DNA of 64,000 bases, taken from positions 1 through 64,000 of the forward strand of contig NZ_CP035534.1 in the NCBI RefSeq assembly GCF_009068765.1, written 5' to 3'. The position numbers were made by a program, and so were the translations under genes. Numbering within the stretch: the first letter of the stretch is position 1; each line of letters begins with the position of its first letter. Shown one piece after another: positions 56,410-58,600 of the stretch. The notes below the pieces were generated by a model. The model had not been told where the DNA came from, made no database searches, and saw nothing but the letters and a program-made list of their open reading frames with translations. This DNA comes from Sulfurimonas hydrogeniphila. GTDB taxonomy: Bacteria; Campylobacterota; Campylobacteria; Campylobacterales; Sulfurimonadaceae.

Positions 56410-56472
56410 TGACGAAATAATAAAAAAAAATATTGACTTTTATCGTCAAATAAGTGTATAATGACGATGAAA
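56410..56472 (+). promoter_or_regulatory. Promoter with ATCGTCA/TGACGAT operator-like repeats before the recombinase-like gene
   Basis: TTGACT at 56433-56438 and TATAAT at 56457-56462 are separated by 18 bases. ATCGTCA at 56442-56448 and TGACGAT at 56462-56468 form an inverted repeat that covers the spacer and the start site. A further TGACGA lies at 56410. This layout suits autorepression by the following gene product. Confidence 0.6.
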
Positions 56473-56501
56473 ATCAATTATTAGAGAGGTTTAATCGTTA
56501 A

Positions 56502-57137
56502 ATGACTATTGCCTATATCCGTCCGGATAAAAATTTTTTATCTGCACATGAACAGTTGAAATATATAAATTCTTACACAACGACTAATAATCTTGTTGTT
56601 GATGATGAATTTGTAGATTACATATCGCAAAATAAACGTTTGGAAGATCGCATAAATGTAACATCTTATTTTCAATCTAAAGAAGAAGCTATACTGCTTA
56701 TATATGATGTTTGGGTTTTAACTACAAATATGGAAGATTTAATTCAAATGGTAAGTTGTTTGTTGAAAAATAAATATAAAGTGCATATTATAAAACACTC
56801 TGTTATAATTTCACAAGAGAGCAGTGCAATGTTGATTTTAGGGCTTATGGATCAACTCCGGCAAAAATTGAAAAATGATGCTAAAAGAATGATAGGGAGA
56901 CCAAAAGGAAGCAGATCCAGTTCTAAGTTTGATATTTATTTAAATGAGATTATAGAGTATATAAGAGAGAAAAAAAGTGTAAGTGAAATGGCACGTCTTT
57001 TAAATGTCAGTAGAAGTTCACTAAAAGATTACATTGAATCAAGAGAGTTAAAACAGATAGCTTCGGGTTCGTTGCTGACGCATACTCAAGAAGATGCCGA
57101 AGCTCAGGTTATTAATACAATAGTATGTCCAGATTAA
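56502..57137 (+). CDS. Serine-recombinase-like DNA-binding protein without catalytic residues
   Basis: The 211-residue protein follows the resolvase plan: an N-terminal domain starting AYIRPDKNFLS (where active enzymes read YxRVS), a long helix near 108-130, the GRPKG hook at 132-136 and a helix-turn-helix at 159-178 (SVSEMARLLNVSRSSLKDYI). The nucleophile serine is replaced by D9 and the arginines of the L-D-R-x-x-R segment are missing (YDVWVLTTN). It is best read as a former recombinase turned regulator. ccoG follows 17 bases later. Confidence 0.72.
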   Translation: MTIAYIRPDKNFLSAHEQLKYINSYTTTNNLVVDDEFVDYISQNKRLEDRINVTSYFQSKEEAILLIYDVWVLTTNMEDLIQMVSCLLKNKYKVHIIKHSVIISQESSAMLILGLMDQLRQKLKNDAKRMIGRPKGSRSSSKFDIYLNEIIEYIREKKSVSEMARLLNVSRSSLKDYIESRELKQIASGSLLTHTQEDAEAQVINTIVCPD

Positions 57138-57154: not shown

Positions 57155-58600
57155 ATGAGTGAAAAGAAAAAAAGTATAGAGATACCTACCCCTTGGAGAA
57201 TTAAACGCTATTATGTTTATGCGTTGGCGACAATAGTAGCTTTGGTGTTGCCATGGATTAAAGTCAATGGACACCACTTCTTTTTATTGAGTTTTGACAA
57301 AATGAAACTGGACCTTGCTTTTGTGCAGTTTGATATGCAAGAGTTGTATTTGATGCCATTTTTATTGATGCTTCTTTTTATTACTATATTTGGTATGACA
57401 GTTTTAGGCGGTCGTGTTTTTTGTGGATGGGTATGTCCGCAAACTGTGTTTCGTGTCATTTATCGTGACTTGATTGAAACAAAATTATTGCATTTACGAA
57501 AACGTATCGGAAACAAGCAGCAAGAACCGGATATGTCAAAACCTGAAAACAAAGTAAAAAAAGCGATAGCTGTTATGATATGGACTGTGCTTGCATTGAT
57601 TGCAGGAGCCGATTTTATGTGGTATTTTGTTCCACCGGAGACCTTTTTTCAGTATTTAAGTAATCCTGGAGAGCATTTGACGATGATTGGTTTTGTTGTA
57701 GGGATTGCAGCATTTTTGATTTATGACATTGTATTTTTAAAAGAAAATTTTTGTATTTATGTCTGTCCATATTCCCGTGTACAGTCAGTACTCTATGATG
57801 AACACACAGTTATGGCGATTTATGACTTTAACAGAGGCGGACATATCTATGACGAGCATCACCATAAAAAATTTGAAAAACAAAAAGAGTTGCAAGCAGC
57901 AGAACCAAATGCCGAATGTACGACATGTGAAAAATGTGTAACAGTCTGTCCTACTCATATTGATATACGTGAGGGACTGCAACTTGAATGTATAAACTGT
58001 CTGGAATGTGTTGATGCCTGTACAACAGTTATGGGTAAACTTGGAAAACCATCACTCGTGACATGGTCAAGTGAGTATGAGATTGCTGAGAAAAAGGGAA
58101 AAACAAAATATTTCCGTCCAAAAATCATAGCATATATGGTTTTACTTGTGGGTCTTATGTTTGCACTTGGATATATGAGTACGACAAAAGAGCATATGCT
58201 GTTAAATATCAATAAAGAGACAAGACTTTATTCTGTCAAGCATCTTGCAAATAATAAATTTGCAGTTGAAAACTCTTATGTCTTTTTATTGCAAAATACT
58301 GAGAATGAACCAATGAAGTTTTTCTTTGAAGTTATTCCTCCAAAAGGAATGGAAGGGAAAATTCAAATAGTAAAACCGTCAAAACCTTTCAGAGTGGTAC
58401 CTGGTGTTAAAAAGAAAAAAATTGTAACACTTAGAACAACAGAGATGTTGGTTGATGACAAACGCAAGGATACTATTATTCCTATTACTATTCATGCATA
58501 TGCTTTGGATAAAGACGGAAAGCCTAGCAAACTTATTTCTGTAATGAGACATACAATTTTCGTCTTTCCTAAAGAGAATGTCCTTTTAGACTCAAAATAA
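57155..58600 (+). CDS. ccoG: Cytochrome c oxidase accessory protein CcoG (RdxA/FixG)
   Basis: CcoG reduces copper for insertion into cbb3 oxidase. The 481-residue membrane protein has about five spans, a first cysteine pair in FCGWVCPQTVFR at 90-100, two 4Fe-4S clusters in CTTCEKCVTVCP near 255 and CINCLECVDACT near 282, and a periplasmic immunoglobulin-like C-terminal domain (about 355-475). AGGAG precedes the ATG. The cbb3 subunit genes are not in the window. Confidence 0.95.
   Translation: MSEKKKSIEIPTPWRIKRYYVYALATIVALVLPWIKVNGHHFFLLSFDKMKLDLAFVQFDMQELYLMPFLLMLLFITIFGMTVLGGRVFCGWVCPQTVFRVIYRDLIETKLLHLRKRIGNKQQEPDMSKPENKVKKAIAVMIWTVLALIAGADFMWYFVPPETFFQYLSNPGEHLTMIGFVVGIAAFLIYDIVFLKENFCIYVCPYSRVQSVLYDEHTVMAIYDFNRGGHIYDEHHHKKFEKQKELQAAEPNAECTTCEKCVTVCPTHIDIREGLQLECINCLECVDACTTVMGKLGKPSLVTWSSEYEIAEKKGKTKYFRPKIIAYMVLLVGLMFALGYMSTTKEHMLLNINKETRLYSVKHLANNKFAVENSYVFLLQNTENEPMKFFFEVIPPKGMEGKIQIVKPSKPFRVVPGVKKKKIVTLRTTEMLVDDKRKDTIIPITIHAYALDKDGKPSKLISVMRHTIFVFPKENVLLDSK

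Follow-up and report, generated by a model that had tools for sequence, protein, structure and literature searches.

Serine recombinases regulate genes either by flipping DNA or by repressing the transposon to which they belong, and the dimer sites within the res regions of Tn3 and gamma-delta are 28-34 bp in length. A 34-bp site is named in the title of structure 1gdt. The Tn3-family resolvase TnpR binds res and in this way represses its own gene together with tnpA (PMC7157771). Hosts have made transcription factors of mobile-element proteins, Ner to SfsB being one case, and in the passages of the review considered here serine recombinases act by DNA inversion, with no mention of a dead one in the role of transcription factor (PMC8987985). 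The regulators of respiration in the Campylobacterota were reviewed in 2019, and the words "recombinase" and "invertase" are absent from that review (PMC6682613). In the open-access literature we found no paper joining ccoG or cbb3 with a recombinase and Sulfurimonas, and no report of a dead serine recombinase acting as a host respiratory regulator.

We describe here a gene within a 64,000-nucleotide stretch of Sulfurimonas DNA (the window) that encodes a small, catalytically dead serine recombinase, which appears to be a long-serving switch of itself and of ccoG, a gene that provides copper for the oxygen-respiring enzyme, in an order of mostly sulfur-oxidising bacteria. With the TnpR proteins of Tn3 and gamma-delta it shares the fold and dyads that overlap its own promoter, an arrangement that in the active TnpR accompanies autorepression. 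However, TnpR works as an enzyme in the service of a transposon, whereas the ccoG-linked protein is encoded on the chromosome and catalytically dead, with dyads of 38-40 bp compared with the 28-34 bp of the res dimer sites. The Mpi-type invertases (NF009949, PRK13413) resemble it in having a GRPKG-type linker and a helix-turn-helix (HTH), but the catalytic residues and about 14 residues of helix E are missing from the ccoG-linked protein, and Mpi regulates by flipping promoters while the gene order of the ccoG-linked loci is constant. Recruitment of the Ner/SfsB type is alike in that a DNA-binding protein of a mobile element was exapted for host regulation (PMC8987985). The known regulators of Campylobacterota respiration likewise control respiratory genes in the same phylum but are of a different protein class. 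If the reading put forward below is true, it would provide a clear case of a recombinase that has become a transcription factor, with its chemistry dropped, as a chromosomal regulator of oxygen respiration, and it would supply a regulator for cbb3 and bd oxidase genes in bacteria whose switches are poorly known.

Fold, active site and occurrence of the ccoG-linked protein

The serine-recombinase fold of the 211-residue protein is not in doubt. Its best family match is the Mpi invertase (NCBIfam NF009949/PRK13413; residues 1-184, E 1e-9), with 38.3 bits against a curated cutoff of 272, and it matches Pfam Resolvase with E 1.9e-4, slightly below the cutoff of that family. When its relatives are combined into a profile, gamma-delta resolvase is matched over both the catalytic domain and the HTH (hmmsearch, E 3e-8). 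The AlphaFold model (pLDDT 77; the hook and the C-terminal tail are of low confidence, pLDDT <50) matches the Tn3, gamma-delta, Sin and TP901-1 enzymes, Tn3 resolvase with a Foldseek E of 3.5e-7, and its structural Z scores are 13.3 against the catalytic domain of TP901-1 and 12.6 against that of gamma-delta resolvase, the comparison that an earlier note on this DNA, made from the letters alone, had proposed as a check. The resolvase plan, the GRPKG hook and the HTH that the same note recognized are thus borne out: a catalytic domain of resolvase fold is followed by a C-terminal HTH, as in the serine recombinase superfamily, and the HTH is the best conserved stretch of the protein.

The active site was analyzed in an alignment of the ccoG-linked family with gamma-delta resolvase and the next-nearest homologs from the same phylum. 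Ten of these homologs, including one from the same genome (1306385-1307041), are intact, with motifs of the RVSTDKQ and SRLGR types. At the position of gamma-delta Ser10 the ccoG-linked family has Asp9 in Sulfurimonas, as had been read from the sequence, and variable residues in the other families. The accompanying claim that the active-site arginines are gone stands for R68 and R71, the equivalents of which (V72 and T75) are replaced in every aligned member, and falls for R8 and R45, since the equivalent of the former (R7) is nearly invariant and that of the latter (R50) is fully conserved. Some 14 residues of the helix-E region, including the ERxxIxxRT motif, are absent in all aligned members. 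Compared with an active small serine recombinase, therefore, the protein has R8 and R45 and lacks Ser10, R68, R71 and the helix-E motif, and to judge from the alignment it cannot act as an ordinary recombinase.

The gap of 17 bases between the regulator gene and ccoG, given in the earlier note, was recovered. An ortholog is present in about half of the Sulfurimonas genomes, S. indica NW8N (L037) among them, and ccoG is directly 3' of the regulator in all of the loci that have it. Homologs with ~30-37% identity are found in ten other families of the order (Campylobacterales, as inferred from the named Sulfurimonas congeners) and these too lie upstream of ccoG, an order seen at all 24 loci of other genera and families that were checked (gap -23 to 89 bp); adjacency to ccoG is lost in family f17. 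In the phylum sample 98 genomes have a match at E ≤ 1.4e-51, followed by a gap to ~1e-24, where other recombinases start. Many of the genomes are metagenome assemblies and some absences of the regulator may be assembly gaps. In most of the examined Sulfurimonas genomes without the regulator, metH is retained as the neighbor of ccoG, so that in these it is the regulator gene alone that is absent. To fit the ccoG tree, the regulator must have been gained or lost at least three times inside Sulfurimonas, which means that the contrast between regulator-positive and regulator-negative genomes is not that of one clade. The exaptation of the dead recombinase, going by this distribution, is ancient and order-wide rather than local.

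Some individual loci depart from the common pattern. An intact regulator adjoins a decayed ccoG with 12 in-frame stops in one genome (G109:C1:39814-41914), which has an intact second ccoG elsewhere, in a cco cluster. Two diverged copies of the regulator, each with a ccoG, are found on short contigs of one metagenome-assembled genome (G052:C171 and G052:C172; L040, L036), and represent mixed strains or a duplication. An in-frame TAG in the f17 matches was set aside, as the f17 proteins end after the HTH.

Table 1. Features of the regulator-ccoG locus and of the second target (window positions unless marked otherwise)
Feature	Position	Strand	Basis
Operator site A, 39-bp dyad TGACGAA...ATCGTCA, over -35 and spacer; half-sites TGACGAA 56410-56416 and ATCGTCA 56442-56448	56410..56448	.	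conservation, shuffles
Predicted -35, TTGACT, also an invariant part of the right arm of site A	56433..56438	+	35 aligned Sulfurimonas promoters
Predicted -10, TATAAT, spacer 18 (17 in most other families)	56457..56462	+	predicted start site
Operator site B, dyad of 39 bp (TGACGAT...ATCGTTA) reaching from the -10 to 2 bases short of the start codon; half-sites TGACGAT 56462-56468 and ATCGTTA 56494-56500	56462..56500	.	conservation, operator profile
Regulator gene, small serine recombinase, catalytically dead, 211 aa, ATG start	56502..57137	+	ORF, fold, alignment
Codon of C86, conserved helix cysteine	56757..56759	+	invariant in 20-row alignment; absent in f17
GRPKG hook, residues 132-136	56895..56909	+	GRPxG invariant (20-row alignment)
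HTH region, residues 144-187, VSEMARLLNVSRSSLKDYIESRELK	56931..57062	+	near invariant across families; helices in model
Codon of C209, C-terminal tail cysteine	57126..57128	+	tail Cys in 69/72 proteins
ccoG, encoding a cupric reductase of cbb3 oxidase assembly; presumably a target transcribed together with the regulator	57155..58600	+	TIGR02745, E 2.4e-138
Gene of 70-aa one-helix membrane protein, behind second dyad	genome 891335-891547 (L115:1602-1814)		

Proposed operators at the promoter of the regulator gene

The ATCGTCA/TGACGAT repeats that had been noticed over the promoter resolve into two 39-bp dyads, one over the -35 and spacer, the other running from the -10 up to the ATG (sites A and B; Table 1). 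The single word TGACGAT is without enrichment in the window (6 seen, 5.8 expected), but a dyad of 38-40 bp with ≤2/12 mismatches is present in 36/36 orthologous promoters compared with 2/500 dinucleotide shuffles, and the signal above chance is therefore the dyad arrangement and not the word. The outer span of site A among 36 Sulfurimonas promoters is 39 bp in 33 and 40 bp in two, and the site is lost in one. In other genera and families, where protein identity is only ~30-37%, it is kept at 38-40 bp with ≤2 mismatches in 21 of the 24 loci. Site B, which is found in the family of the window only, spans 39 bp in 28 of 36 loci and 40 bp in five, with a distance to the ATG that varies from 36 to 43, and the operator profile matches the reverse complement of the site B region (E 1.3e-4). 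The centers of the two sites are 52 bp apart, equal to five helical turns. Column conservation in the aligned Sulfurimonas promoters has its maxima at TGACGA, TTGACTT, CGTCA and TATAATGACGATGAAA. The half-site TGACGATAAAA presumably resembles the res half-site TGTCYGATAATT, and we take the 39-bp dyad to exceed res site I by about one helical turn. Dyads that overlap its own promoter are a feature that the protein shares with a resolvase-type autorepressor (TnpR-like).

A second promoter and the wider candidate regulon

When the genome of the window was searched with the operator profile (sites A and B), only the regulator locus was significant (E 1e-17). The best non-self match, at 891220-891258 (E 0.19), is an exact dyad, and the genome has just two of these, each of 39 bp. 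It lies upstream of the gene for a 70-residue membrane protein, for which Pfam and NCBIfam gave no family, and of an M48 peptidase gene. The dyad is centered at about -74, as reckoned from a conserved extended -10 (predicted start), and there is no -35. With ≤3/12 mismatches this second dyad is present in 15/21 regulator-positive versus 0/9 regulator-negative Sulfurimonas genomes (Fisher p 7e-4), a threshold that is not rarely passed by chance (reached or bettered in 71/500 shuffles), and with ≤2 mismatches it is present in 12 regulator-positive and no regulator-negative genomes (p 0.004); six of the 21 lack a good site. The tie between regulator and operator that the earlier note had assumed is thus supported by comparison of these genomes. 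A reversed control pattern gave as many or more exact matches per genome as the dyad pattern, which means that single sites prove nothing and that the case rests on conservation. The remaining profile matches in the genome (1413295, 934489, 954512, 2295927) contain no dyad and were taken as chance, as were exact dyads in regulator-negative genomes, which are without the A/T-rich inner arms. In family f18 a homolog of the 70-residue protein is encoded inside the regulator-ccoG cluster, together with NifX-like, SQR-like and cydA genes, and this connects the unlinked target to the regulator-ccoG operon independently of the motif. The membrane protein is apparently co-regulated with ccoG and also occurs in the cydAB/ccoG clusters of other families.

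In C. jejuni, cbb3 activity falls by half when CcoG, a cupric reductase, is lost (PMC8267372). The search for the repeat near other cbb3 genes that had been suggested was unsuccessful at ccoN of the same genome, near which there are neither half-sites nor profile sites and which was ruled out as a target for want of half-sites. In other families dyads precede bd oxidase (cydAB), copper chaperone (PCuAC/SCO), SQR-like and anion-channel genes. In other regulator-positive genomes exact dyads are located before an SQR-like gene (G370), SLAC1-DUF302 (G034 and G015), NifX-like/lipoprotein/DUF6858/SQR-like genes (G436), NifX-like/cydAB/small TM genes (G087) and NifX-like/small TM/PCuAC/SCO1 genes (G118). 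In f17 the dyad precedes NifX-like/small TM/PCuAC/SCO1 and NifX-like/cydAB genes. SQR-like genes are directly 3' of ccoG in several families, as are SLAC1-like genes in f20 (named by eye). The genes that recur behind the dyad concern terminal oxidases, copper supply and sulfide.

Two groups of neighboring genes were also recorded. SQR-like FAD oxidoreductases and NifX-like (Nitro_FeMo-Co) proteins are encoded next to ccoG or follow a 39-bp dyad (L198, L199, L205, L259, L263), and a SLAC1-family channel with a DUF302-like protein is found behind a dyad or adjoining the regulator (L162, L163, L202).

Proposed mechanism and alternatives

We propose that the 211-residue protein is a dedicated DNA-binding transcription regulator and, as part of the same best explanation, that it descended from an Mpi-like small serine recombinase, and we consider both to be highly probable. 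The use of a recombinase fold as a regulator of ccoG, the central suggestion of the earlier note, is supported by the gene order in ten other families, the conserved operator, its recurrence at the second, unlinked promoter and its absence from that promoter in genomes without the regulator. The fold, the lost catalytic residues, the synteny, the operators and their co-occurrence with the gene are observed; binding, the sign of regulation and the signal are what we infer from these observations. In the proposed mechanism, a dimer would place one HTH at each outer end of the 39-bp dyad (TGACGA...TCGTCA), some three helical turns from each other, and would leave the DNA uncut, since the protein has lost the catalytic Ser, R68, R71 and the helix-E ERxxIxxRT motif. 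Protein bound at sites A and B would cover the -35/spacer and the -10/start, respectively, and so repress the regulator and ccoG. Given this geometry, negative autoregulation of the two genes is probable. At the gene of the 70-residue protein activation is favored, with rather less assurance, because the site is at about -74 and an extended -10 is present without a -35.

The position of site A, centered at about -40, is also suited to a class II activator, and the alternative that survives best, improbable as we hold it to be, is that the regulator also activates its own promoter, with site A as a class II site that replaces the -35 and site B alone providing negative feedback. Site A has its center (56429) ~40 bp upstream of the expected start, the promoter of the second target combines a site at about -74 with the lack of a -35, and the confinement of site B to the family of the window implies that elsewhere site A must act alone, all of which would agree with activation. 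However, TTGACT-18-TATAAT is near consensus, so that an activator should be unnecessary, and a protein over the -35 and spacer usually blocks. Far less probable is that the dyads belong to another regulator and that the recombinase-like gene is a passenger behind one of them. The six of 21 regulator-positive genomes without a good second site would speak for it, but none of the nine regulator-negative genomes has the dyad at the unlinked promoter, the dyad has the inverted geometry with two HTHs expected of a resolvase-like dimer, and the HTH is the part of the protein that is best conserved. Slightly less probable again is a role in DNA architecture or CcoG assembly, with DNA binding by the protein serving only to limit its own level; its own promoter is indeed the only significant profile match in its genome, but conserved dyads are found at other promoters, some of them of operons that lack the regulator gene. 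Least probable is that the protein still recombines DNA at the dyads, for instance to invert or excise a segment. The fold and the retained equivalents of R8 and R45 would speak for this, but the nucleophile, R68, R71 and the helix-E motif are lost in all aligned members, the gene order around the sites is constant in all regulator-positive loci, and a search of viral contigs found no relatives.

For the dedicated regulator proposed here, a thiol-based sensor is suggested by the conservation of C86 and the tail cysteine in nearly all orthologs; the f17 proteins lack C86, the tail cysteine and the tail itself, and G257 lacks the tail cysteine. Going by the content of the regulon, the signal would first be sought in sulfide/persulfide or copper, and it is conceivable, if not quite an even bet, that C86 and C209 read sulfide/persulfide, copper or redox state. 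The most complete form of the mechanism, in which regulators derived from a dead recombinase throughout the order sense sulfide/persulfide or copper by means of the two cysteines, switch a terminal-oxidase regulon (ccoG, the small TM protein, SQR-like, SLAC1-DUF302, NifX-like, cydAB and PCuAC/SCO), repress themselves and activate distally, is tentative and would be unlikely to hold in every part. The regulator hypothesis is directly testable, thanks to an operator of fixed geometry, a second target and a gene that was lost repeatedly.

Other recombinases were noticed in the course of the analysis. The intact serine recombinase of the same genome (L241:566-1222) is followed by a tyrosine-recombinase-like gene (by eye), and the two are probably a mobile element. 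Family f9 (L227, L228, L229, L230, L239) has a separate degenerate serine recombinase, in which Ser is mostly Asn, R68 is Val and R71 is kept. It occupies a fixed locus beside ubiX/coaD and mostly also rplI/hslV (by eye), has repeated ACATTTTGTATAA-like elements upstream, and is possibly another recombinase-derived regulator.
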